Shown here one piece after another: positions 6,195 through 64,000 of a stretch of 64,000 bases of DNA. Source of the stretch: Candidatus Methanohalarchaeum thermophilum. Its GTDB lineage: Archaea > Halobacteriota > Methanonatronarchaeia > Methanonatronarchaeales > Methanonatronarchaeaceae. The stretch is taken from assembly GCA_001914405.1 (NCBI GenBank), contig MSDW01000001.1:434001-498000 (forward strand), written 5' to 3'. Every line of letters begins with the position of its first letter. Position 1 is the first letter of the stretch. Both the position numbers and the translations under genes were made by a program. The notes under the pieces were generated by a model, which made no database searches, was not told the DNA's origin, and saw only the letters and a list, made by a program, of their open reading frames with translations.

Positions 6195-7475
6195 TTGGTT
6201 TCGGAAGAAGTTAAAAGAATAAGAAAGGAAGTCAAAAAACATCATAAGTTAATGAAGGAATCTATTCCTTTAATAGCCAGTGAAAATTTGCTTTCCCCAC
6301 TTGCAAAGGAAATGTTGATATCGGATTTTTCCCACAGATATGCCGAAGGGGAACCAGGTAAAAGATATTACCAGGGATGCAGGTATATTGACGAAGTAGA
6401 AGTAGAAGCAACCAATTTAGCGAAAGAAATGTTTAATGCAGATTTTGCTGATGTAAGACCAATATCTGGAGTTTTAGCAAACTTATCTGCTTTTTTTGGA
6501 TTGTTCGAATCTGGTGATAAGTTGATGTCTTTATCTGTTCCAGATGGTGGCCACATATCACATAGAAAACATTCAGCTGCTGGATTAAGGGAATTCGACA
6601 TCAATAAAATACCATTTGATAAAGAAAAACTCAATATAAAGGTAGAAAAAACTCTAGAAAAAATAAAAAAGATTGAACCGGATTTAATACTCTTAGGTGG
6701 ATCAGTTTTTTTATTTCCTCATCCAATAGAAAAAATAAAAGGAACTGCTGAAGATGTAGGAGCTAAAATAATTTACGATGGAGCTCATGTTCTTGGACTA
6801 ATCGCAGGAGGAAAATTTCAGGATCCGCTCAGGGAAGGAGCCGATCTAGTTACTGGAAGCACACACAAAACCTTTCCCGGGCCTCAAGGTGGCTTAATAT
6901 ATGGTTCAAGTAAATACGAAGAAAAAATAAAAGAAACAATTTTTCCTGGATTAGTCAGCAACCATCATTTACATCATGTAGCTGCCTTAGGAGTAACTTT
7001 AGGAGAAATGAAATATTTTGCAGAGGATTATGCCACTCAGATAATAGATAATGCTAAAGCATTAGCTGAAAATCTATATAATAAAGGTTTGGATGTTATG
7101 GGTAAACAAAATGGATTCACCTCTTCTCATCAAGTGTTAGTTGATGTTTCAAGATTTGATTCAGGAAGGAAAGTAGCGAATAAATTAGAAGAAGCCAACA
7201 TAATCGTAAACAGAAATCTTATTCCCTCTGATAAAGTAGGAGAAACAGAATCCGGGATCAGATTAGGAGTACAGGAGCTAACTAGATTAGGCATGGAAGA
7301 AGAAGAAATGAAAATGCTCTCTAAATGGATCGCTGATCTAGTTATGGAAAAAACTGAACAAGATAAGATAAAAGAAAAAGTTATTGAACTAAAAGAAAGC
7401 TTTAATGACCTACATTATTGCTACGAAGGTAAAAGAGCCAATCCTTACAAATATATAGACCTAGTAAATAAATAA
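6195..7475 (+). CDS. glyA: Serine hydroxymethyltransferase
   Basis: This 426-residue PLP enzyme interconverts serine and glycine while moving a C1 unit, in methanogens onto H4MPT. Visible family features are the N-terminal IASENLLSP, the HRYAEGEPGKRYYQGC segment that binds substrate, and the PLP-lysine motif TGSTHKTFPGPQGG (lysine near residue 225). The length is that of archaeal members. The start is TTG at 6195 with GAGGGG about five bases upstream; an alternative ATG is not available nearby. A very AT-rich leader (6110-6190) with a TATA-like TTTAAAATAT probably holds the promoter. It abuts the left end of IS-A, which did not disturb the coding frame. Confidence 0.93.
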   Translation: MVSEEVKRIRKEVKKHHKLMKESIPLIASENLLSPLAKEMLISDFSHRYAEGEPGKRYYQGCRYIDEVEVEATNLAKEMFNADFADVRPISGVLANLSAFFGLFESGDKLMSLSVPDGGHISHRKHSAAGLREFDINKIPFDKEKLNIKVEKTLEKIKKIEPDLILLGGSVFLFPHPIEKIKGTAEDVGAKIIYDGAHVLGLIAGGKFQDPLREGADLVTGSTHKTFPGPQGGLIYGSSKYEEKIKETIFPGLVSNHHLHHVAALGVTLGEMKYFAEDYATQIIDNAKALAENLYNKGLDVMGKQNGFTSSHQVLVDVSRFDSGRKVANKLEEANIIVNRNLIPSDKVGETESGIRLGVQELTRLGMEEEEMKMLSKWIADLVMEKTEQDKIKEKVIELKESFNDLHYCYEGKRANPYKYIDLVNK

Positions 7476-8257
7476 GATAACATACTAGATTTAAATTTAA
7501 AAAAACTAAAGCATTATCTATTTGACTGAGAAGACACCTTTCTAAATCTTTTGATTAGGTAGGGGTAGTTCACATCTCTTAATACTACATCTTTTTATAA
7601 ATCATAAATTTGTTTGGATGATTGAATACAATTGTACAAAAAGAAGACTTAACTATTTAATTAAGAAATAATTTGTCTAATTCTTTGTTTTGGATTTGCT
7701 GAATTATTAATTTTGGAATTTATGATTTTTTTGTAGTAAACCCCGATTTTCCGGGATGGGTTATGTGGAAGTGTATTTGATAGTGGGGATTTGGTTCTTC
7801 ATTAGATATGGCTAGAGTTCCTACTGCAGAGTGAAAGTTCTTGGGACTGGGTCTGAAGCCACTATTGGTTACCCGGTTTTTAGAACTTAATTCGGAGAGG
7901 TAATTGGTAATTTATGTTAAAATGGTTATATATACCTATGCTAATCGCTAGATTTGGTGGGTGAGGATGTCACACTGGTTGGTGCCCCAATGTCTTTAAG
8001 CGTTTGGGAGGATGTTACGATAGGCCCTGAAAATTATGTTAAAAATTGTATTAGGTGCATTTGTTGAATATTTTTCAGTGATTGTAAAAGAAGCATTTAA
8101 GTAAATTAAGGGTTACTATTTAATGACGATACGAAAGTTTGGTTGCTGTATACTCTTTAAGTAGGTCATTGGGATAGAAATTTGCCGCTCCTTAGTAAGG
8201 TGTGGGCTTGTTTTAGGTTTTCATATAAGTGTTCTATCAAAAACACAGGGATAATAT
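7476..8257. other. Gene-free stretch with transposon remnants and a solo hairpin
   Basis: I see no gene. At 7521-7573 a minimal element joins a left-end motif (TGAGAAGACACC) to a right-end motif (GGTAGGGGTAGTTCAC) around one palindrome. From about 7790 to 7870 the sequence vaguely resembles the 3' end of a tnpB gene. Around 7960-8020 there are two right-end-like blocks, GGTGAGGATGTCAC and a hairpin CCCCAA/TTTGGG followed by AGGATGTTAC. Together these look like layered, decayed IS605 derivatives. The rest, including 8030-8250, is AT-rich and may hold the promoter of the coiled-coil gene. Confidence 0.45.
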
Positions 8258-9136
8258 ATGCTTGAGCGATTATTGAAGAAAAAAGAGAGCTTAGAGGAAA
8301 AGATACAGGAACTTGAGGAAAAAAGAGATGAATACAACCAGAAGGCGAGTAATTACTCTTCAGAAAGAGATGAATTAAACGAAAAAGCAAGAGAAGCCGC
8401 GGAAAAGGCACAGGAATTTAAACAAGAAAGAGATAAATTCAATAAGAAAGTAAAAGAGAAAAAGAAACAGAGAGAAAAGATTAACAAAGAAATAAATGAA
8501 CTCTATGAAGAGATTGAGGAAGTTAGAAGCGAGATAGATTATGAGGGTCCTCCACCCGAAGAGATTAAAGAAAAAATAGAAGAATTAGAGTTTGAACAAC
8601 AAACTCAGGTTCTTAGCTCAGACAGAGAGAAAGAGGTTATCGAGGAAATATCAGATCTTAAGAATCAATATCAAGAAGCTAAGGAACAGATAAAGCAAAA
8701 TGAAGAGCTAAGCGAAAAGTTAGATGAGATTGAAGAACTTAAAGACGAGGCCTCGGATTTACACGATGAAGTAACTAAGTACGCCGAAAAAGCCCAAGAA
8801 ATGCATGAAAAAATGATAAATCACTTTGATAAGGCAGACGAGATTAGAGCAGAAGCAGATGAAGCACACGAAAAATTCGTTAAAGCCCAAGAAAAAGCTA
8901 ACTCTTATCATAGTGAACTTATAAGTTCAAGAAAGGACATCAAGGACTTCAACAAAGTTATTAAGGGATTAAAAGAGAACAAAGAGAAAAAAGAAGTTCA
9001 ACAAAAACAGAGAGAACAAAAAGAAGAAAAAGAAGAAGTCAAAGAAAAAGCAGAAGAACTCTATGAAAAATTCAAAAATGGAGAAAAATTGGATACAGAA
9101 GATTTAATGTTACTACAAAGAGCCGGGCTAGTATAA
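8258..9136 (+). CDS. Archaeal coiled-coil protein (COG1340-like)
   Basis: This 292-residue protein is almost entirely heptad-rich coiled coil from residue 1 to about 260, dominated by Glu, Lys and Gln, with one break near the Pro-rich [13 protein letters not shown] (about residues 92-104). The conserved tail [20 protein letters not shown] resembles the end of archaeal proteins in COG1340, whose role is unknown. No membrane segment or nucleotide-binding motif is present, so it is not an SMC or Rad50. It stands alone between mobile elements. The family assignment is by overall pattern and is moderate. Confidence 0.72.
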
Positions 9137-9171
9137 ATTATAAAAACAGATTTAGCTATTCCTATTTTTAT

Positions 9172-9665
9172 TTTATCTTATTTTATTTCTCATCGGAGAG
9201 GACCCCCTTTTCTCAATTCTATTGGGATTTAGGTTGGGTAGTGGGATGAATCTGATGCATTTTTAGGATTTGGAACGCCCAAATTGCCATTAACGGCAGT
9301 TTGGTTGGGGGTTACTGTCTCAACAACAAACAGCAGTCCTGTTTGCCTTTGTGAGTATATCACAGGCTGGACTGGTTTGGAAAGGAAACGAGCTAAGGTA
9401 ACCCAAATTTAGGGTTTTTCAGCTCTGAGGATGGTGTAGCGGGTAGCGTGAAGCTAAGCTATTAGAGTGAATAAGAGGAACTACCCTAAAAGTTAAGTTA
9501 GTATATGGCGTAGTTGCCTAATCTAATTCTTCCCTCAAAGCATAAGTTCCCTTTTAACCGAATGCATGGGACAAGTTCGGTGATAAAACAAACTCCTCTG
9601 CTTCTGAGAGGATAAGGTCGCAGGAAAGCCCCCTCCAATCTCTGATTTTGGTAGGGGTAGTTGAC
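9172..9665 (+). mobile_element. P1-family non-coding element, copy b
   Basis: The left end reads GAGAGGACCCCC, a hairpin region and GTGGGATGAATC. The P1 stem GGCAGT/ACTGTC lies at about 9294-9321. The conserved 3' module starts near 9466 with GTGAATAAGAGG, followed by AACT/AGTT, TATATGGC with partner GCC, CTAATC, CCCTCAAAGC and a stem CCGAA/TTCGG (about 9558-9580). The right end is a hairpin with the CCAATCTCTGATTTTGG core and GTAGGGGTAGTTGAC. The CCGAA/TTCGG pair replaces CTGGG/CCCAG of copy d, a double change that keeps pairing. No coding frame. Confidence 0.7.
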
Positions 9666-9729
9666 TTGTAGAATAATTTTTTGGCAAATTATATTTGGTA
9701 TAAATTACTTTTATTTAATGGGCAATTAG

Positions 9730-10806
9730 ATGAAAACGGTTGTACTTTGTATAGATAGGGATAATGATGTTGGTGCTAAAACAGGTAGATTAGGGCCAAT
9801 AATAGGCGTTGATCAGAACTTAAGTGCTGTAAGAGAATTAGCCCTATCAGATCCTGAGGACTCTGATGTAAATGCTATATATGCGGGTATAAAGGTGGCT
9901 AAGGAGATAGGAAATGATGCTGTTCTAGCAACGATAACTGGGTCTGAAAATCTAGGGGTAAAATCGGATCAAGAGATATCAAGGCAGATTGATGAGGTGT
10001 TAGAAAAGGTAGGTGCTAATAAAGCTATTGTGGTAACTGATGGTGCTGAGGATGAAAATGTTATTCCTATAGTGGAATCTAGGCTTGAGATCGAGTCCAT
10101 TAAGAGAGTGATTGTTCGTCAAAGCCAGGATCTGGAAACAACTTACTATTTAGTCAAGAGGTTTATGAATGATCCAAAGGTAATGAGGACTTTTTTTATA
10201 CCAATAGGTTTAGCTTTTTTAGTTTACTCGATTTTTAATTTTGTTAATGCGGCTGAGTTTGCAATAAGCGGGATTTTTCTTGTTATAGGTCTTTACATGA
10301 TTCTTAGGGCTGTTGGAGGAGATGAAGTATTGTACAGTTTTTACCAAGAGGTGAAGAGGTCTTTGACCTCTGGTAGTATATCTTTCGTGACTTATGTTTC
10401 TGGGTTTATTATATTTATAGTTGGATTAATACAGGGATATTTAACTTGGTTAGGGATTTTATCGTCCGATGTAACGATTTTAATGATATCGCAGATAGTT
10501 AGATCTTCTATATGGTGGTTTGTAGTTTCTAGTATACTGGTTCTGGTAGGGAAATTGTTGGACGAATATATAAAGAAATCAAAATTAATTTGGAGATACA
10601 CTGTACTTCCTTTTTTTAGCCTTGGAGCTGGACTAGTAATATGGGGAGGTACTGAGTATATAATAAAAATTTCTGGACAAGCTTCGGTTATAGCAGCTTC
10701 GAAGTATCTTGCTTTTTCAATTATGGGAGGTATATTAATATCTTTCTTTGGTATGTCTTTAACTCGTTTTATTAAAGAAAAGACTAAATTAGGTTTGAAT
10801 AATTAA
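9730..10806 (+). CDS. DUF373 family membrane protein
   Basis: This 358-residue protein begins with the DUF373 signature [20 protein letters not shown] and [20 protein letters not shown] in its cytoplasmic N-terminal domain (residues 1-150). It is followed by about six hydrophobic segments, roughly at 155-175, 178-200, 220-245, 255-280, 295-315 and 325-345. Archaeal DUF373 proteins have no established function; the N-terminal domain looks like an alpha/beta ligand-binding fold. The gene overlaps the convergent homoserine dehydrogenase gene by four bases. The promoter must lie in about 60 bp after the P1 element. Confidence 0.85.
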
Positions 10807-15514: not shown

Positions 15515-16503
15515 GTGAGGCAGAGAACCTCATAGCTTGTCATGAGGGTGAATGTCGAGAGTTTTATCTTAATGGATCGCTAAAGACTCTGTCATTTAGG
15601 GCGGGGATGCAGCGACTCTTGTGTCCAACAAGCTTAAATGTGGATTCAATAAACTTAAATCGAAGTTGGGTTGTGATGACAAGTTTTGAAACAAGGCCGT
15701 TTCCTGATTTCTCTCTGTCATGGAGAGAAGGGTATCCTACGGGGTTCTTGGTGATTGAATTCATCTTTTCACCTCAAGGAGACTCCTTCCTAATCTCTGA
15801 TTAGGTGGGAGAGGAATTGAGGTAATGCTTAAATGGCTAGAACACATATTTTTGGTCAAAGTCAATGGGTTTGAATGGTTGGCTCCTGGTTTAAGGCACT
15901 CTCTTAAAGGAGGGAAAACCGCTTCTTCGGGGAACGCTACCATGCTTGAGAACCTGAACTTTTCCGCTTCGGGCAAAAGCGTGCTCGCGAGAGCCGATGG
16001 AACCACTGACCATGTTCGGTTCCCAGAAGTGGATGGGTCACGGTCAACTGGCCCTTGGAATCGGTTCTAGATGAGCGAGAACCTCTCTGTGTGTAACGGA
16101 AGTTCTCCGAGGAAACCGATAATTAAATTGTACATGTGGTCTGGTCCTATCATACACAAGCCCCTTCCAAAATCTTTGATTTTGGTAGGGGTAGTTGACT
16201 CAGGAGGTTGCATGGCAGGGCTCCTATGTCAGAGTCCTCCATTCTTTGGACTTTCCCCTAGTGAATAAGGTCTAAGCTGGGGAAATGGGACTCCCTAGCT
16301 AGGACCTAGGCCCCTTCCTATCAGTTTTTTGGTTTCTGGTGGGTAGGAAGTCGGCGATGTGGAGTGGGAGCCGTCAACAATGCCTATGCACAGGTCGGTG
16401 GCCTGTTATGGTACTTCTCGGTACTGTTTTTAACTGTGGACTGAAAGGACGGGAATGGAGGGAAGCTCCTTCTTCTTAAGGCGGAGAGGATGTTTCACAC
16501 CTT
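15515..16503 (+). mobile_element. Composite of nested non-coding elements
   Basis: The stretch opens with a left end like that of P1 copy a: GAGAACCTCAT, hairpin, ATGAGGGTGAATGTC (15520-15558). It closes with an IS605-type right end: GGAAGCTCC, hairpin, CGGAGAGGATGTTTCAC (16458-16498). A second complete element (P3, 15771-16199) lies inside it. The parts outside P3 contain several GC-rich stems but match no other copy in the window over their whole length. No ORF here shows protein-like features. The nesting is the best reading of the end order, but a tandem arrangement cannot be excluded. Confidence 0.45.
15771..16199 (+). mobile_element. P3 non-coding element
   Basis: The left end is ACCTCAAGGAGACTCC, the palindrome core CCTAATCTCTGATTAGG and GGGAGAGGAATTGAGG. 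The right end is AAGCCCCTTCC, core AAAATCTTTGATTTT and GGTAGGGGTAGTTGAC (16159-16199). The interior is far richer in GC than neighbouring intergenic DNA and can form clear stems, for example GGAACC/GGTTCC at about 15999-16022. Only one copy is in this window, so no covariation can be tested. It has no convincing coding frame despite open frames caused by high GC. Confidence 0.55.
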
Positions 16504-20951: not shown

Positions 20952-21424
20952 TTTTATCTTAGTGGTTGAGAAGACCTCTTCCTAATCTCCGATTAGGTAG
21001 GGAGGATGAATTAACCACAGATGCCCAATGGTTCTAAGGCCAATATGGGTTTGGCAGTTGGTTGGGAGTCTGCCTCACCAAAAAGTAATTCCACGCCTTG
21101 AGGTAATGGCTAGAGCCTCAGACCAATATCGAGAGGTGTTAGGTAAACTCGAATTTAGTAGAGGTAAGCTTGAATCCGTTTTTTGGTGTAGAGTGTAGTG
21201 GTAGTATAGGAGCTATTATGGTGAATAAGGGAGCCATCGTGAGTTAGATATATGACACTTCTTTGTGTCCTGATCCAGTCTTCTCCCAGAGCAAATAGTT
21301 CCCCTGTTGATTGGGTCTATGAGAGAAGCCCAAAAAAATAAGGCGAGCCCCACTCTGGATAAGGCCCACAAGGAAGCCCCATTTTTCACCGAACGAATAT
21401 GTGGTTAGGTAGGGGCACTTCACT
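20952..21424 (+). mobile_element. P1-family non-coding element, copy c
   Basis: The left end is TTTTATCTTAGTGGTTGAG, AAGACCTCTTCC, core CTAATCTCCGATTAGG, GGAGGATGAATTAACC. P1 stems follow: GGCAG/CTGCC (21053-21076), TTGAGG/GCCTCA (about 21097-21120), GACAC/GTGTC around TATATGACAC (about 21250-21270), and TTGGGT/GCCCAA (about 21322-21342). The right end has AAGCCCC, a long hairpin and TAGGTAGGGGCACTTCAC (to 21424). Just upstream (20917-20947) a second left-end-like hairpin, AACCCCAC/GTGGG, is stacked before it. No coding frame. Confidence 0.72.
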
Positions 21425-54162: not shown

Positions 54163-54843
54163 ATGGATAAAAAGGAAAATTCTAAGTTAAGTCGTAGAAA
54201 TTTGTTAAAGGTGATTGCTGCTGGTGGAGCAGCAGCAACAGTAGGAGTATCCGGCTGCACACAACAACAACAAGGAACCACCACCAAATACGCCTGCCCC
54301 TACTGTGACAAAGAGTTTGAGTCTCAAAGCAAACTTAAAACACATATTCAGGAAGATCATCCACAGGAAATATCAGATATAAAGAAATCAGGGGTAATTA
54401 CTTGGGAACCCGAAAAATGTGCTTCCTGTAGCAGATGTCTAATGGCCTGTTCCGCTTATCATGACGGTAGTATAAGCTATAAGATATCAAGGATCCTTTG
54501 GGAAGACGATGACTATATAGGCCAATTTGAATTCAGGAGACCTCTACTCTGCCAACAATGTGATTCTCCGGAGTGTTTCTATGCTTGTCCGATAGAGGGA
54601 GCTATGTATATTGATGAGGAAACTGGAGCTAGGTGCATAGACGAAGAAAAGTGCACCGGCTGTGGAGAATGCGTAGAAGCATGCCCGTTTGAGCCTACTA
54701 GAGTACTTATGAAAGCAGATGGAGATGCTGCAATTAAATGTGACTTGTGTTCAGATAGAGAAGGAGGCCCTGTTTGTGTTGAAGTGTGCGATAGGAATGC
54801 GCTGACATATGTAACTTCGGAAGAAAGAGAAGGAGGCACCTAA
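54163..54843 (+). CDS. Tat-exported Fe-S protein with a C2H2 zinc finger, AOR partner
   Basis: The N-terminus has a twin-arginine signal (SRRNLLKVIAAGG) and a lipobox-like VSGC at about residues 29-32, so it may be exported and lipid-anchored. A classic C2H2 finger follows: CPYC, twelve residues, H, four residues, H (about 45-66). Then come four [4Fe-4S] motifs: CASCSRCLMAC, CQQCDSPECFYACP, CTGCGECVEACP and CDLC...CVEVC. The Fe-S part resembles the electron-transfer subunit of molybdopterin or tungsten enzymes. It ends two bases before the AOR gene, of which it is the likely partner. Confidence 0.86.
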   Translation: MDKKENSKLSRRNLLKVIAAGGAAATVGVSGCTQQQQGTTTKYACPYCDKEFESQSKLKTHIQEDHPQEISDIKKSGVITWEPEKCASCSRCLMACSAYHDGSISYKISRILWEDDDYIGQFEFRRPLLCQQCDSPECFYACPIEGAMYIDEETGARCIDEEKCTGCGECVEACPFEPTRVLMKADGDAAIKCDLCSDREGGPVCVEVCDRNALTYVTSEEREGGT

Positions 54844-54844
54844 A

Positions 54845-56839
54845 ATGGATGGATATGTAGGTAAGATACTAAAGGTTAATTTAGATAATGGAACCACATC
54901 TGAGATCGATACTAGTAACTATGTGCCGGATTACATTGGAGGAGTTGGAATAGCTTACAGGCTTGTTTGGGAGAATATGGACGAGGATTTAACGGAATTC
55001 GATCCTGGTAATCCCTTGGTTTTCATGACTGGGCCATGTTCAGGAACCTCTCTACCATCAACGGGTAGAACAGAAATTTCGGGACTAGCGCCAGAAGGTT
55101 ATCCAGAGCCATGGGTAGCTAATTCTGGGTTTGGAGGCGATTTCGCGGCTAAATTGAAATATGCTGGATATGATGGGGTAATAATAGTTGGAAAAGCTGA
55201 AGAACCAGTTTACCTGTTGATAAGTGAAGATGGCGTTGAAGTAAAGGATGCAACACATCTTTGGGGTTTAGGAACCCTAAAAGCACAGGAACTATTAGCA
55301 AGAAATCATAGTGATGATATGGGAGCAGCACTAATCGGGCCGGCAGGTGAAAACAAAGTAAGATGGGCTACAGTTCAAGCTAGGACAGAAAATGCAGCAG
55401 GACAAGGAGGTTACGGAGCAGTAATGGGCTCTAAGAACCTTAAAGCCGTTGTAACTATTCCAGGCGATACAGAAATTACTGTAGCAGATCCGGAAGCTGT
55501 TATAGAAGAATCCAAGAAGATATCAGAGGAATTAGCTACTCCAAATCAACTTGAAGGAGAATTAGAAACCGAAGAATCACAATGGACAACCAGACATCAA
55601 AGTTGTGGTTTTTCAGCTTGTACTGGAGGTTTTGCAGGATGTCTACCAGTCTATTATAGTAATGTACCCAGAAAGTTTACTGGTTCAGGAACGGTTTCCG
55701 GGGTAAAGTATTGTGTAGGAAACTGTGGTCCTTGGCTATATAATGGAGATTGGGGAGATACAAATACAGCCTTAGAAGTTAATAAACTCTGTGATGATCT
55801 AAGCCTTAATCACTGGGAAGCCTTTGCTGGACTAAACTGGTTCTTATGTAATGCCTACAACGAAGGCGAATTAAATGAGTTGATGGGTGAAGAATTAGAT
55901 ATGAACGAGGATGCTCCACATGTTTACCCAGATACTACTGCTAATGTAGGTTTTTCAAAAGAGTTTGCTGTTAAATTCTTAAGAAAAATAGCACACAGAG
56001 AAGGAGAAGATGCTGATATCTTAGCAGAAGGAACTCCTAGAGCAGCGGAAGAAATGGGGCTAGAAGAAATTGCTAAAGAAACACATAAACATGGATACGG
56101 CCCTCACTGGGACGGAAGATATCTACATTTTATACATTACCCAGTATGGGTAGTATCAGCATTAGCATGGGCAGTTCAACCGAGAGACCCATTTAATCAA
56201 CAGCACGGTTATCCAGAAAGGTTACCATCATTCGTTGAAGAATGGGCAGGAGATACAAATATAATGGGAACAGAAACCCTGCCATATGATACTGTCGTAG
56301 ACTTAGCAGCAGAAGTTTATGGAACAGAAAACGCCCTAACCGGATGGAAAAACACTGAATTAGGCTACAAAGACAAGGAAATACCAGAAATATGGCACGA
56401 AAACAGGCAATTAATGAAAGGAAGCGTCCCAGCATGTGATAGACAATTCCCACTAATTATAGACCCAAGAGAAGATGATAACATAGGAGATTACGAAGCT
56501 GAACTAAGAATGTTTAACGCCGTAGTAGGAACGGATTGGTCCTTAGAAGAAATGTACGAAGCATGTGAAAAAATCTGGAATGTTTACAGAAGTTGTCATG
56601 TCCTACAAGGAAGAACGAGAGAGCAAGATGAAACCGTAATTGATTACTTCAAACAACCCTCCGACTGGCCCGATGAGCCACAAGAATTAGATCCAGATAA
56701 ATTTAGGGACTTACTCGAAAACTATTATGAAGAAAGAGGATGGGACAAAGAAAATGGATGGCCAACCAGGGATAAACTAGAAGAACTTGGATTAAGTGAT
56801 GTGGCAGATAAACTAGAAGAAAAAGGCAAACTACCATAA
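54845..56839 (+). CDS. Aldehyde ferredoxin oxidoreductase (AOR)-family enzyme
   Basis: This 664-residue protein matches the AOR family: YIGGVGIAYRLVWENM, LVFMTGPCSGTSLPSTGR, WVANSGFGGDFAAKLKYAGY and GRTENAAG-like ARTENAAGQGGYGAVMGSKN (about residues 176-195). These regions bind the tungsten bis-pyranopterin. The cluster cysteines are spaced C253-x4-C258-x6-C265 with later ones near CVGNC and PACDRQF, unlike the Cx2Cx3C of classical AOR. It has no signal peptide of its own, but its Tat partner could carry it across the membrane. The substrate could be an aldehyde or another carboxylate-level compound; it is unknown. Confidence 0.9.
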   Translation: MDGYVGKILKVNLDNGTTSEIDTSNYVPDYIGGVGIAYRLVWENMDEDLTEFDPGNPLVFMTGPCSGTSLPSTGRTEISGLAPEGYPEPWVANSGFGGDFAAKLKYAGYDGVIIVGKAEEPVYLLISEDGVEVKDATHLWGLGTLKAQELLARNHSDDMGAALIGPAGENKVRWATVQARTENAAGQGGYGAVMGSKNLKAVVTIPGDTEITVADPEAVIEESKKISEELATPNQLEGELETEESQWTTRHQSCGFSACTGGFAGCLPVYYSNVPRKFTGSGTVSGVKYCVGNCGPWLYNGDWGDTNTALEVNKLCDDLSLNHWEAFAGLNWFLCNAYNEGELNELMGEELDMNEDAPHVYPDTTANVGFSKEFAVKFLRKIAHREGEDADILAEGTPRAAEEMGLEEIAKETHKHGYGPHWDGRYLHFIHYPVWVVSALAWAVQPRDPFNQQHGYPERLPSFVEEWAGDTNIMGTETLPYDTVVDLAAEVYGTENALTGWKNTELGYKDKEIPEIWHENRQLMKGSVPACDRQFPLIIDPREDDNIGDYEAELRMFNAVVGTDWSLEEMYEACEKIWNVYRSCHVLQGRTREQDETVIDYFKQPSDWPDEPQELDPDKFRDLLENYYEERGWDKENGWPTRDKLEELGLSDVADKLEEKGKLP

Positions 56840-58653: not shown

Positions 58654-58716
58654 AAGAAATTCTTCTAGAATAAAGAGTTAATTTAACTGATTTTACTTTA
58701 AAGGTGATATAAAAAG

Positions 58717-59191
58717 TTTTATCTTAGTGTTTGAGGAAGACCTCTTCCTCAAATATTTGATTTTAGAGGGAGAAATGAATTAACCTTAACACTTAAATGG
58801 TTCGAGTAAGTTAATTAGGAGTAATTGGCAGTTGGTTGAGTTTGTCTGTCTTCGAACAAAAAGCAATTCCATGTCCCTTGAGGTATCTGATTAAAGCCTC
58901 AGACTAAAACTGAATTGGAATGTATGTTGGTATGCTTGGGTTTCGTAGAGTGCACGTGGCTGGTGTGGAGTTGACGGAGTGGATAAGTGGGTCTATCTAC
59001 GATTTAGTATATGACATAGTATATGACATTTTTTGTGTCCTGATCCCTGTTTTCTCTTGGAGCTAAGTTACCTGTGTTGATTTGGGTGCGTTGAGGTAAC
59101 TCCGATGGTAAAGCAAACTCCTTTGGATAATGCTCATAATGGAAGCTTCTTCCTTTAATATCGAATGTGAGGTAAGGTAGGTGTCACTTCA
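58717..59191 (+). mobile_element. P1-family non-coding element, copy f
   Basis: The left end is TTTTATCTTAGTGTTTGAG, GAAGACCTCTTCC, core AAATATTTGATTTT and GAGGGAGAAATGAATTAACC. The P1 stems are GGCAG/CTGTC (58827-58851), TTGAGG/GCCTCA (about 58880-58899) and GACAT/GTGTC after TATATG (about 59020-59040). TATATGACAT is partly duplicated here (58988-59036), a local tandem change. The right end is AAGCTTCTTCC, hairpin, AGGTAGGTGTCACTTCAT. No coding frame. Confidence 0.7.
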
Positions 59192-59806
59192 TACGCTTTG
59201 AAAAGTATATTGGTGATTAAGAGTTTTTGGGAGAAATTTTAATTTCTTCTAAGCTGGTGGAGATGCACTAGAATAGGGGGAATTGAATGGCTTTTCTGAA
59301 CGAAGAAGACTCTTCTTCTAGCACCAATTTTTTGTGGTTGGGTTCAGAATTCAAGCTATTTGTTGTTGGTTTTGGTCTTTGTCTATGTGAGCTAGGTGAA
59401 GGTAGGTGTTAGTCGAAGTCAGGTGGATTTTCTGTCTTTACAGGATGTTCCTCTTGAGGTTTTCATTGGTAGGTTTGATAAACTTAAATTTAATGGGCCT
59501 AAGGACAGAGAAGTGGGGGAGGTTTTTTCCTAGTTAATGGTAGTTAGGTGGTGGGTATTAGTTGGTGGGTAACTGTGTGAAACTCAATTAACTCTATCTT
59601 ATTTATTATTTTTGGTTCGTTTTTTCTTGTTTCAGTTACGGCATCGGGTGTATGAGTTTTTTTCTTTAAATTTCGTTATGTATTTAAAAACATAAGTGAT
59701 GTTTTTTTTAGGCCCCTTATTCAACCAAAAGGTTTTTATAATTTTTTTGATAGAGTTTACCTTGGTAGCTAGTACCAGTTTATAATTAGCTTGTAGAAGG
59801 AATATA
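59192..59806. other. Gene-free leader of the hydrogenase operon
   Basis: No gene is seen. Bases 59200-59580 contain scattered fragments resembling element interiors but no clean ends. A TATA-like TTTTTATAA at 59733-59741 and a second TTTATAATTAG near 59780 are possible promoter elements; the first would put the transcript start near 59765. The ribosome binding site GAAGGA lies near 59796, before ATG 59807. Confidence 0.4.
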
Positions 59807-60760
59807 ATGTCAAAAAAATACTCTAGACGAGATTTTATAAAAGGAAGTGTTCTAACAACTGCTGGGGCATTTGGCTTAACCTCTATTTCTCTTGCTGAGG
59901 CACAAGAAGAAGTAGATGGCCCTCTTTTAGTAATTAATCCTTCTGAATGCAAGGGCTGTGATGTCTGTCTCGCGGCATGCGAAGACTATCACCAGAACTA
60001 TTACGAGGGATGGGGGGATGATAAGCCTGGGACTTATTATTCAGAAGTCTTAGGAATAAACGAAAATGAGATTAAAAGAAGACGAAATATTAAAAATGGG
60101 GAGAGAACCAACGAATTCGATTGGTCTCCTCCTGGAAATCTTCCACACAGAGGAAAACAATTTTACTTACCGATTCAATGTATGCATTGCAACGATGCAC
60201 CATGTGAAGACGCCTGCTTGGGGAATGCGATATCTACTACGGATAAGGGAAAGGTAGTCATTGATCATGAAAGCTGTATAGGATGTTTATCCTGTGTAAG
60301 TGCATGTCCTTTTAGTAGAGGCAAATATCAGACAATTAAATATTCAATGCAAGAAAAAAAGGTCTTCAAATGCGATATGTGTGAAAGGAGACTTGAAGAC
60401 GGTAAAAATAAACCAGCTTGCGTGGAGATATGTCCCACTGACGCTAAATTGTATGGCCCTGGATCTGAAATGCTTGAAGAGGCTTTAAAGATAGCAGAAG
60501 ATGTAAATGGAGCGGTTTTGTATCCAGAGGAAACAAGTGTGTTATTTATTTTAGATGAATCACAGGTTGAGCTATTGAGTGAATTGAATCTTATGGAAGA
60601 AGAGTACCCCAATGGCCGTTTAAAAGCATCTGTCTTAAATTACTCTAATTATGGTTTTATACCGTTATTACTTGGTTTTTTGGGGTTTACATTTGTTTAT
60701 AAATCTAAAAAAACAGAAAATATAGTAAAAGCTTCTAACGAGGGGGAAGAAAATGGATAA
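59807..60760 (+). CDS. Tat-exported, membrane-anchored HybA-like ferredoxin
   Basis: A Tat signal (SRRDFIKGSVLTT) precedes four [4Fe-4S] motifs: CKGCDVCLAACE (about residues 47-58), CMHCNDAPCEDAC, CIGCLSCVSACP and CDMC...CVEIC. A C-terminal hydrophobic helix, YGFIPLLLGFLGFTFVY (about 282-300), anchors it in the membrane. This is the layout of HybA and related electron-transfer subunits of exported hydrogenases and molybdoenzymes. It overlaps the next gene by eight bases and so is translated with it. It would connect the hydrogenase to the membrane on the outer face. Confidence 0.88.
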   Translation: MSKKYSRRDFIKGSVLTTAGAFGLTSISLAEAQEEVDGPLLVINPSECKGCDVCLAACEDYHQNYYEGWGDDKPGTYYSEVLGINENEIKRRRNIKNGERTNEFDWSPPGNLPHRGKQFYLPIQCMHCNDAPCEDACLGNAISTTDKGKVVIDHESCIGCLSCVSACPFSRGKYQTIKYSMQEKKVFKCDMCERRLEDGKNKPACVEICPTDAKLYGPGSEMLEEALKIAEDVNGAVLYPEETSVLFILDESQVELLSELNLMEEEYPNGRLKASVLNYSNYGFIPLLLGFLGFTFVYKSKKTENIVKASNEGEENG

Positions 60761-61604
60761 TTGGTTTGAAAAAGAAATAGAACTCAGTTCACTCACCCAA
60801 GAAGAACCAGGATTATTAGAGTTAATGACTAAGAGGATAATAAATGTCAGCTACTTTTCGTTTATTTTCCATGTTGGAGTTATATTTGCAATTTTAACTG
60901 GAATATTAATTTCGGTTTTTGCAGTAGTCCCAGGAATAACAAAATCGCTTGGAGGAATGGGCTGGGTGATTTCTTGGGGTCACGCAATTTTAGGGATAAT
61001 ATTAATAATAGGCCTAATAGGTGTTCTAGGGAGATATAGCCTAAATAAATCATTTAGAAAAGCATATGGCAAATACTTTTACTTTTTCCTGTTTTCCCTT
61101 TTAATACTTTCTATTACAGGCATTATCTCCACATTAAAGCTTTTCGAGATTTTGCCATTGAGCTATGGGCTTTTTCCAGTAGTTCACGGAATTGTAGCTT
61201 ACGGTTGGCTGATAGGATCAGGTTTAATCTTAAAAGGAAGTGTTAGACATGGTTTTGCTTCAGTTTACAGGAGTCTAGGAAAAAAGCCAAAGGAAAAAAC
61301 AACATTTACGGATGCTTGTGCTATGTGCGGAAAATGTATAGAAGTATGCCCGAATTACAATGCCCTAGAAGAAGACGAAGAAGCACCAGCATATAAGGTT
61401 AGGAGATACTTAGATAAGGTTTCAAGCGGAAAAATACCAAAAGAAGAACTTAAAACCCAGATTGAGGATGTTTACGTATGCAGTTTATGCGGACTTTGCG
61501 TTGGCGTATGTCCCTACTCATATGATCATGTGGATTTATACTTAGAAGTACTTAATCAAGGAGAGGAAAAACTGGGATCCCAAAAGAGTGGGGAGGCCAA
61601 TTGA
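60753..61604 (+). CDS. Cytochrome b-like membrane subunit fused to a HdrC-like ferredoxin domain
   Basis: Residues 1-195 have five membrane segments with His residues suited to bind heme b (FHVGVI, SWGHAILG and VVHGIVAYGW). Residues 200-283 carry two [4Fe-4S] motifs, CAMCGKCIEVCP and CSLCGLCVGVCP, resembling HdrC and the cytoplasmic end of NarI/HdrE-fused proteins. Such proteins pass electrons between a membrane carrier (methanophenazine or quinone) and soluble Fe-S partners. The start overlaps the preceding ferredoxin gene. Heme ligation is inferred from position alone. Confidence 0.82.
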   Translation: MDNWFEKEIELSSLTQEEPGLLELMTKRIINVSYFSFIFHVGVIFAILTGILISVFAVVPGITKSLGGMGWVISWGHAILGIILIIGLIGVLGRYSLNKSFRKAYGKYFYFFLFSLLILSITGIISTLKLFEILPLSYGLFPVVHGIVAYGWLIGSGLILKGSVRHGFASVYRSLGKKPKEKTTFTDACAMCGKCIEVCPNYNALEEDEEAPAYKVRRYLDKVSSGKIPKEELKTQIEDVYVCSLCGLCVGVCPYSYDHVDLYLEVLNQGEEKLGSQKSGEAN

Positions 61605-62140
61605 TGAGTTTAGGTACTGAAAGGAGAGAACTTCGGTCATTGGAAAATACATTAAAAGAGGAACTAGGGGGAAAGAGATCTCTGATAATGGGAATCGGAA
61701 ACCCCGAAAGAGGTGACGATGCTATTGGAACTAAAACTGCAAAATCTCTAAAATGTGAATTAAATAATATATCAGTTTTAGATTGCAGAACAAATCCAGA
61801 GAACTATTTACTAGAAGCAAGATCACTAGAACCTGAAAAGGTTATTTATATAAATGCTGTAAGAAACGGGGCTCCTTCAGGCAAACTTTTTTTTAAAGAA
61901 CTAGATTTAAACCAAGATAATCAATTTTCAACTCATAAAATAGCTCTTGGATCTATCTCTAACATATTAAGTGGATTACTTTCAGGAAAAATAGGGAAAA
62001 AAGATTTCCATTTACTTGGGATCGAAATAGCCGATACATTTCAAATGACCAAAAAAGTTGAAAAACGAGTCAGAGACCTAACAAATGTCTTTTCATATGT
62101 TGATCAAGTAGCTAAGCCAATAAATAAAAAAGGTTTTTAA
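61604..62140 (+). CDS. [NiFe] hydrogenase maturation protease
   Basis: The protein has the hydrogenase endopeptidase start LIMGIGNPERGDDAIGTKTA (about residues 27-46), with Glu and Asp residues that bind the nickel of the precursor, and the central VLDCRTNPENYL and YINAVRNGAPSG strands. It trims the C-terminus of the large subunit after nickel insertion. The ATG at 61604 overlaps the previous stop (TGATG) with GGGGAGG upstream. At about 178 residues it is slightly long for the family, and its N-terminus carries a 20-residue charged extension. Confidence 0.88.
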   Translation: MSLGTERRELRSLENTLKEELGGKRSLIMGIGNPERGDDAIGTKTAKSLKCELNNISVLDCRTNPENYLLEARSLEPEKVIYINAVRNGAPSGKLFFKELDLNQDNQFSTHKIALGSISNILSGLLSGKIGKKDFHLLGIEIADTFQMTKKVEKRVRDLTNVFSYVDQVAKPINKKGF

Positions 62141-62159
62141 AAATTAGAGGTGGAAAAAA

Positions 62160-62669
62160 TTGAATAATAAATTAAAAACTGCTATAGTTGAGACAAGCCA
62201 TTGTGCAGGATGTGAAGTAGCTATAGCGGATATGGGCGAATCTCTTTTAGAAATGCTAGAAGAAAAAATCGAATTAGTTTATGCTCCAGTTTTTATGAGT
62301 TCTAGGGACTTTGGAGAAGTAGACTTAGCATTAATAATAGGTTCAGTTAAAAACGACCACGATGAGGAAAAGATAAAAGAAACAAGGGAAAAAGCAGAAA
62401 TACTGGTCTCATTTGGAGCCTGCACAAACTTTGGTGGAATATATGCAATAGGAGACATGTACGGTAAAGAAGACCAATTAAAAAAAGCTTATAAAGAAGT
62501 TCCAAGCCTAAAAGATGGAGATATACCAGATAAAGATATCCCAAAGATAACGGATGAAGCTTCCCCTGTCAGTGAATATGTAGATGTTGATTATAAACTC
62601 CCTGGATGCCCACCACCACCCCCTCTAATTAAAGATTTTCTCACCACATTATTGGAGAGTGTTAAATAA
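62160..62669 (+). CDS. [NiFe] hydrogenase small subunit, short group 3-like type
   Basis: This 169-residue subunit binds only the proximal [4Fe-4S] cluster: CAGCEVAIADMG (about residues 15-26), then SFGACTNFGG (about 80-89) and LPGCPPPPPL (about 148-157). It has no Tat signal and lacks the C-terminal region that holds medial and distal clusters in exported hydrogenases. It resembles the small subunits of group 3 enzymes such as MvhG or HoxY. The start is TTG at 62160 with GAGGTGG upstream. It is followed without a gap by the large subunit, and by the Tat ferredoxin in the same operon, an odd pairing. Confidence 0.87.
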   Translation: MNNKLKTAIVETSHCAGCEVAIADMGESLLEMLEEKIELVYAPVFMSSRDFGEVDLALIIGSVKNDHDEEKIKETREKAEILVSFGACTNFGGIYAIGDMYGKEDQLKKAYKEVPSLKDGDIPDKDIPKITDEASPVSEYVDVDYKLPGCPPPPPLIKDFLTTLLESVK

Positions 62670-64000
62670 ATGAATGATAATAAATCAACAGAAGAAACAA
62701 ATAGATTGGTTAGAGAACCCTTTACTAGAATAGAAGGCCACTTAAAAGTTACAATTGATCTAGATAAAGAAGGAGGAGTAAAAGAAGCTCACTCCCACCT
62801 AACTGAGTTCAGAGGATTTGAAAAATTCCTCGAAGGAAGAAGGATCCATAAAGTACCACAAATAACTCCAAGAATATGTGGCGTCTGCTCAGCACCTCAC
62901 CATATAGCTCCAACAAAGGCAATAGAGGACGGCTTAGATGTAAAGCCACCTGAGACAGCCAATTTATTAAGACAACTTATTTCAATGGGGGACTTAATCC
63001 ATGATCACACTCTCCATCTGTTTATCTTAGCTGGACCAGACTTCGTCTTATCCGATATACCTGAAGAAGAAAGAGGGATAAGTAAACTTTACGAAAGAGA
63101 ACCAGATCTAGTTAAGCAGGCAATTAGGGTAAGAAAACTAGGCCATGAAATTATCTCAACCCTAGGTGAACAGGCCGTACATCCATTAACACTAGTTCCA
63201 GGAGGAATCTCCAGAGGTCTAACAGAAGACAAAAGACAAAAACTACTAAAAAAAGCAAAGGAAGCTAAAGAAATAGTTTTAGGTTGGAATAACTCCTTTG
63301 TACAACCAATAATAGAAGAAACGGTAAATGACTATAAGGACCTCGGAGAACTAGAAACCAACTTTATAGCTCTACACGATGATGGAAACCTTGAGGTATA
63401 TGACGGAACTGCACAAGTTGTTTCACCAGAAAATAATGTCAAGGATGAATTTACTGGAATAGATTATCTAGATAACATAGCTGAAAAATCTATAGAATAC
63501 AGTTACGGGAAAGCATGTTTTACAGTCGAAGATGGATTTCCTAAAGGAATATACCGAGTAGGTCCATTAGCAAGAGTAAACATAGCAGAAGATGCACCAA
63601 CAGAAAAAGCAAGCGAATTAATACAAGAATTTAAATCTAAATTTGGAGAACCTTCTCAAACTACTCTCACATACAACTTAGCTAGATACATTTGCCTAGT
63701 ATACGCAGTGGAAAATGCAGTAAACCTACTTCAGAAAAGAGAGATAACAGGAGATAACCTTCGAAATAAACCAGACTTAGAAGAAGGAGAAGGCGTAGGC
63801 CTCGTAGAAGCCCCAAGAGGCCTACTTATACACCACTACAAATGGAACAACCAAGCTCAAGTTACAGATGCAAACCTAATAGTACCAACCACACAAAACT
63901 CATATCCAATAGACCAATCAATGAAAAATGTAGCCCAAAGATCAATCAAAAACAAAGAAATCAAAGAAGACAAACTCTGGCACGAAATAGCACTAACAGT
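62670..64000 (+). CDS. [NiFe] hydrogenase large subunit, truncated by the window edge
   Basis: The ATG directly follows the small subunit stop. The first 443 codons show REPFTRIEGHLKVTID at the N-terminus, the nickel-binding RICGVCSAPHHIA (about residues 69-81) that provides two of the four cysteines, GKACFTVEDGFPKGIYRVGPLA, and EGVGLVEAPRGLLIHHYKWN (about 372-391). These fit group 3 enzymes (MvhA/HoxH-like). The C-terminal DPCxxC-type motif and the cleavage site lie beyond base 64000. The hydrogenase type can only be judged from the N-terminal half. Confidence 0.92.
   Translation, partial: MNDNKSTEETNRLVREPFTRIEGHLKVTIDLDKEGGVKEAHSHLTEFRGFEKFLEGRRIHKVPQITPRICGVCSAPHHIAPTKAIEDGLDVKPPETANLLRQLISMGDLIHDHTLHLFILAGPDFVLSDIPEEERGISKLYEREPDLVKQAIRVRKLGHEIISTLGEQAVHPLTLVPGGISRGLTEDKRQKLLKKAKEAKEIVLGWNNSFVQPIIEETVNDYKDLGELETNFIALHDDGNLEVYDGTAQVVSPENNVKDEFTGIDYLDNIAEKSIEYSYGKACFTVEDGFPKGIYRVGPLARVNIAEDAPTEKASELIQEFKSKFGEPSQTTLTYNLARYICLVYAVENAVNLLQKREITGDNLRNKPDLEEGEGVGLVEAPRGLLIHHYKWNNQAQVTDANLIVPTTQNSYPIDQSMKNVAQRSIKNKEIKEDKLWHEIALT

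Follow-up and report, generated by a model that had tools for sequence, protein, structure and literature searches.

A group 3c-like [NiFe] hydrogenase encoded with a predicted exported and a predicted membrane iron-sulfur protein in Candidatus Methanohalarchaeum thermophilum

We propose, with moderate confidence, that a [NiFe] hydrogenase operon in this methanogen encodes a group 3c enzyme without its bifurcating partners and without two C-terminal clusters, which, acting from the cytoplasmic side, has become part of a minimal membrane wire of the Hmc kind. In their textbook form, group 3c hydrogenases are soluble and serve HdrABC as bifurcating partners. The window analyzed here, a stretch of 64,000 nucleotides (C1:434001-498000), belongs to a genome of 2.14 Mb in four contigs that is 95% complete. 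Table 1 lists the features at its 3' end, where the ORF layout shows five plus-strand genes (59807-64109) arranged as one tight operon: genes 1 and 2 overlap by 8 bp and genes 2 and 3 by 4 bp, the gap between genes 3 and 4 is 19 bp, and that between genes 4 and 5 is 0 bp.

Table 1. Genes of the hydrogenase operon and the region preceding it (window positions)
Feature	Position	Strand	Description
Upstream region	58654..59806		1.15 kb without a convincing gene (no sense ORF); diverged dispersed-repeat copies; presumed operon promoter region
Gene 1	59807..60760	+	Predicted Tat-exported, C-tail-anchored 4x[4Fe-4S] protein, HybA/HmcB/FdnH-like, 317 aa
Gene 2	60753..61604	+	Four-helix membrane protein with C-terminal HdrD/HdrC-type 2x[4Fe-4S] domain, 283 aa
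Gene 3	61601..62140	+	Hydrogenase maturation protease, HycI/HyaD superfamily, 179 aa
Gene 4	62160..62669	+	[NiFe] hydrogenase small subunit, 169 aa, TTG start
Gene 5	62670..64109	+	[NiFe] hydrogenase large subunit, MvhA-like, 479 aa; window ends at 64000; L007:5670-7109

The sequence-only reading, which ended at 64000 inside the large subunit gene, described a hydrogenase operon of mixed type. This hybrid gene content holds, with the correction that the maturation protease of gene 3 (TIGR00072, 8.7e-18, above cut-off) had been overlooked. Past the window edge the large subunit runs complete to the operon end at 64109, and no canonical partner gene follows: MvhD, HdrA and diaphorase genes are absent 3' of this position, the interval 7110-10700 of the surrounding locus (L007) has no plausible gene, and non-coding repeats are followed by a TnpB remnant. 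Neither of the two outcomes named against that reading, a canonical operon downstream or a large subunit phylogeny in group 1, appeared.

The small subunit has one cluster and no Tat signal, as originally read. Its sole cysteines, at positions 15, 18, 88 and 150, account for one [4Fe-4S] cluster, and the open frame of 173 codons leaves no room for a signal peptide. The group 1 uptake features, an own Tat signal and three clusters on the small subunit, are therefore missing from gene 4, as is the three-cluster small subunit of group 3c. Both catalytic subunits are nevertheless related to MvhA and MvhG. Gene 4 matches the VhuG model (9.4e-45, below the strict equivalog cut-off) and Oxidored_q6, and only group 3 chains were matched in the PDB (MvhG 5odc_E, 3e-38); the best match is the N-domain of MvhG, and the protein stops at the point where MvhG would continue into its two-cluster C-terminal domain. 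The gene 5 ORF is complete, with the L1 motif RICGVC and the L2 motif DPCIACATH followed by a 23-residue C-terminal extension. The earlier view of the large subunit as group 3-like agrees with its best model, VhuA (4.9e-110, below the strict equivalog cut-off), with MvhA and HydL as its best solved relatives, about equal at E about 1e-102, and with 40-43% identity to archaeal MvhA.

The catalytic pair sits beside group 3c Mvh and outside group 3d, and nothing favours group 1. In large-subunit trees gene 5 falls on the 3c/3d side, apart from Frh and group 1, and the group 1 clade and the 3d clade each exclude it with 100/100 support. Its branch is long (about 1.0), and these trees do not fix its place among the deep Mvh branches; in large-subunit-only AU tests neither a position at the base of group 1 (p 0.098) nor a union with 3d (p 0.126) was rejected. 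The combined small and large subunit tree assigns both proteins to the Mvh side, next to the Mvh of family f6 (91/82), and rejects their union with the 3d/HydL/Hox clade (AU p 0.012). We therefore regard it as very improbable that the operon encodes a 3d or HydABCSL-type hydrogenase minus its diaphorase, with a short small subunit that is ancestral and not newly shortened. The shortness of gene 4, shared with HoxY and HydS, and the large-subunit-only test speak for such an origin, but the combined tree rejects a HydABCSL/Hox ancestry, the 3d clade excludes gene 5, and the operon contains no NADH or HydABC module.

The distribution of short small subunits points the same way. Across 394 Halobacteriota genomes, the open frame of every other MvhG match spans 285 codons or more, compared with 173 for gene 4, and short small subunits elsewhere (family f14 of Halobacteriota; Desulfobacterota) occur in HydABCSL/Hox operons, where NuoF- or HydA-type genes adjoin them whenever the contig extends far enough. 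Most simply, the shortening of gene 4 would thus be a separate event inside 3c. The association with NuoF/HydA-type partners also suggests that short small subunits depend on an external FeS domain. One Halobacteriota example (L096, G019:C1:246001-262000) is a HydABCSL/Hox-like operon of NuoE, NuoF, a HydA-like protein, short small subunit, large subunit and protease.

The shortened gene 4 must hand its electrons to an FeS acceptor on another protein, and two candidates exist in the operon: the gene 2 domain inside the cell or the gene 1 clusters outside. Gene 1 was first described as a Tat-exported, membrane-anchored ferredoxin; the Tat motif (SRRDFIKG), four cluster motifs containing 16 Cys, and a C-tail (280-298) of weak hydrophobicity are all present, and export is predicted. 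The protein scores against the HybA (2.3e-31), HmcB (2.6e-30) and FDH-beta (3.9e-23) models, all below curated cut-offs, and against FdnH (1kqf_B) at 8e-17. An FeS protein with a Tat signal and C-tail is what an Hmc-like module has, and the gene 1 sequence shows both. For gene 2, the earlier description as a cytochrome b-like protein fused to HdrC-like clusters stands in its second half: the C-terminal part contains two CxxCxxCxxxC motifs, matches Fer4_8/16/17, and has its nearest relative in the N-terminal domain of HdrD from this genome (42% over 96 aa). The 'cytochrome b' half consists of helices (three clear and one weaker hydrophobic) and histidines (His 40/77/145/166), with no Pfam family match to the membrane half, so heme binding is putative. 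The loop between helices 2 and 3 has five K/R and no acidic residue, and a K/R-rich stretch follows helix 4; by the positive-inside rule the loop charges would place the FeS domain in the cytoplasm, with His 40/166 towards the inner face and His 77/145 towards the outer one, a layout that would suit two b hemes. An AF2 model of gene 2 alone (pLDDT 51.6, low confidence) has four long helices. We do not claim homology of the membrane half to HdrE: its profile score of 0.4 bits lies below the 5.2 bits reached by shuffled controls, and the BLAST E value of 6e-06 was obtained in one pairwise comparison that was not corrected for composition. Searches of 394 Halobacteriota and 198 Desulfobacterota genomes, the two phyla sampled, found no relative with the full gene 2 architecture.

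The rest of the genome narrows the possible electron routes. It encodes mcrA, adjacent hdrE and hdrD, a complex I/Fpo-like operon and a Tat formate dehydrogenase. A scan of genome contigs with the large subunit found only two distant loci. Contig C2 carries a Vht-like group 1 hydrogenase with a small subunit that bears a Tat signal of its own, together with a cytochrome, a protease and hyp genes. A search of this 95% complete genome for FlpD/MvhD and for CCG proteins gave no FlpD/MvhD match above cut-off and no free HdrB; the only CCG proteins are HdrD and a 362-aa HdrD-like protein. Without MvhD and free HdrB, the canonical 3c route from MvhG through MvhD to HdrA is closed. The second HdrD-like protein (L153:7842-8930) has two ferredoxin motifs and two CCG domains and adjoins MoxR/VWA genes. 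Two other assignments were discarded: the HdrC-like domain of gene 2 has no free HdrB to feed, and service of genes 1 and 2 to the formate dehydrogenase is unlikely, as that operon has its own FdhB and a cytochrome b561-family subunit.

In the proposed membrane wire, the small and large subunits would stay in the cytoplasm, and the gene 4 [4Fe-4S] cluster would reduce the two-cluster HdrD/HdrC-like domain of gene 2, which would substitute for the two-cluster C-terminal domain of MvhG that gene 4 is missing. From there the four-helix, probably two-heme part of gene 2 would relay electrons into the methanophenazine pool and onto the exported gene 1 protein outside. In a methyl-reducing methanogen the likely direction would be from H2 oxidation through methanophenazine to HdrDE, and a published model for Methanonatronarchaeia takes H2 or formate to HdrDE through methanophenazine (PMC7374477). 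We infer complex formation, hemes, membrane side, direction and outside partner from the sequences. The original alternatives, a pair that stays inside or one exported by a partner, remain the right two, and the inside placement is modestly favoured, since the pair then shares the location of its relatives and two clusters stand in for the two that were lost. The overlapping or abutting genes, the dedicated protease and published parallels in Hmc and in tail-anchored modules of an FeS protein with an FdnI-type cytochrome b (PMC10924467) support the wire; against it, the four clusters of gene 1 are equally possible acceptors from the small subunit. The five-gene grouping was seen in one genome only, among sampled relatives that comprise one other genus of the family and one further genus of the class, so conservation cannot back it.

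Export of the pair is possible, if on the unlikely side: the two subunits would assemble with gene 1 in the cytoplasm and leave on its Tat signal, and electrons would run outside from NiFe through the gene 4 cluster, the four clusters of gene 1 and the gene 2 hemes to methanophenazine or to the cytoplasmic FeS domain. The layout would be formate-dehydrogenase-N-like, a 3c hydrogenase serving as its catalytic head; the single cluster of an FdnG-type head, which feeds FdnH, matches the single cluster of gene 4. The pattern recurs within the window (54163-56839), where an aldehyde oxidoreductase lacking a signal comes directly after a Tat FeS protein, and the PaoA Tat signal is known to export the signal-less PaoB and PaoC (PMC4273604). 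However, in Escherichia coli hydrogenase 2 HybC is carried by HybO, not HybA (PMC4273604), groups 3c and 3d, the close kin of the pair, are taken as cytoplasmic, and the Vht and formate dehydrogenase of this genome carry the Tat signal on one of the catalytic-module subunits. It appears doubtful that a 3c-lineage hydrogenase, moved across the membrane by the Tat signal of its acceptor subunit as the head of an FDH-N-like complex, sends electrons by way of the cytochrome and the HdrC-like domain fused to it straight to an acceptor in the cytoplasm.

The mixture would also be explained if the operon encoded two independent machines, with genes 1 and 2 as a stand-alone FeS/cytochrome module and a soluble hydrogenase reducing ferredoxin or another free carrier. 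Tail-anchored FeS proteins with an FdnI-related cytochrome b are widespread in bacteria, where they have no known function and such pairs stand alone with variable neighbours (PMC10924467), and in this operon the protease lies between genes 1-2 and the catalytic genes. Yet the genes overlap or abut, no external FeS acceptor other than those in the operon is encoded near the shortened small subunit, and the canonical MvhD/HdrB acceptors are missing from the genome, which together make this explanation improbable.

Compared with known systems, the operon shares with MvhAGD-HdrABC of group 3c the MvhA-like large subunit, a small subunit like the MvhG N-domain and the combined-tree placement, but it lacks the two-cluster domain of the small subunit, the genome lacks MvhD and free HdrB, and membrane and exported partners are present. 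Group 3d Hox and NiFe-HydABCSL have, like gene 4, a one-cluster small subunit in need of an external FeS partner, whereas here their diaphorase/HydABC genes are absent and the pair lies outside their clade. Hmc combines HmcB, a NarI-related cytochrome b and a cytoplasmic GlpC-type FeS protein (PMC10924467). To Hmc and the tail-anchored modules the operon corresponds in its HmcB/HybA-like exported, anchored FeS protein, cytochrome-like membrane protein and cytoplasmic HdrD/GlpC-type FeS domain; in contrast to Hmc, the last two parts are fused, no HybB/NrfD-like protein or multiheme c cytochrome is encoded, and a hydrogenase is added. FdnGHI likewise joins a one-cluster catalytic head to a four-cluster tail-anchored beta subunit and a four-helix membrane subunit, but the head here is NiFe and unsignalled, the Tat signal is on the beta-like subunit, an extra cytoplasmic FeS domain is present, and a formate dehydrogenase operon exists separately in the genome. 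The Vht-like enzyme also pairs an H2 enzyme with a membrane cytochrome partner; it differs in the Tat signal of its own small subunit, and the two large subunits fall in separate clades.

The operon joins an Hmc-like theme, its membrane and FeS parts fused, to a 3c hydrogenase, and other phyla may have relatives. We found no description of the operon in the literature searched; the primary genome paper, outside that search, possibly mentions it. If the proposal is true, a 3c pair stripped of MvhD, HdrABC and two clusters and coupled to the membrane would mean that methanogens with cytochromes can recycle the 3c module, and it would provide a second entry point for H2 beside Vht in a methyl-reducing methanogen. 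The operon is also a concrete test case for whether the Tat signal of an acceptor subunit can carry a NiFe pair.

Three minor observations concern the surroundings. In the aldehyde oxidoreductase locus upstream, a second possible case of hitchhiker export, the Tat FeS protein has 226 aa with a C2H2 zinc-finger-like stretch and the signal-less protein is aldehyde ferredoxin oxidoreductase-like. A degraded TnpB-like gene lies in pieces 3' of the hydrogenase operon (L007:11140-12486). Dispersed non-coding repeats occupy L007:7900-9750 (about window 64900-66750), and diverged pieces occur in the window at 15562-15760, 16207-16493, 20952-21379 and 58771-59146; the copies in the region upstream of gene 1 match L007 7961-8343 and 15306-15781. 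The repeats fall into three sub-elements, about 500, 365 and 520 bp long, and their 55 matches in the genome have roughly 65-87% identity. They match no Rfam family at the gathering threshold; a weak HgcC-like match in the vicinity is the sole hit. In an alignment of 15 copies, the 365-nt element has a fold with 95% of cells paired and covariation barely above shuffled controls, and the repeats could be a structured RNA in many copies or, alternatively, a MITE-like element.
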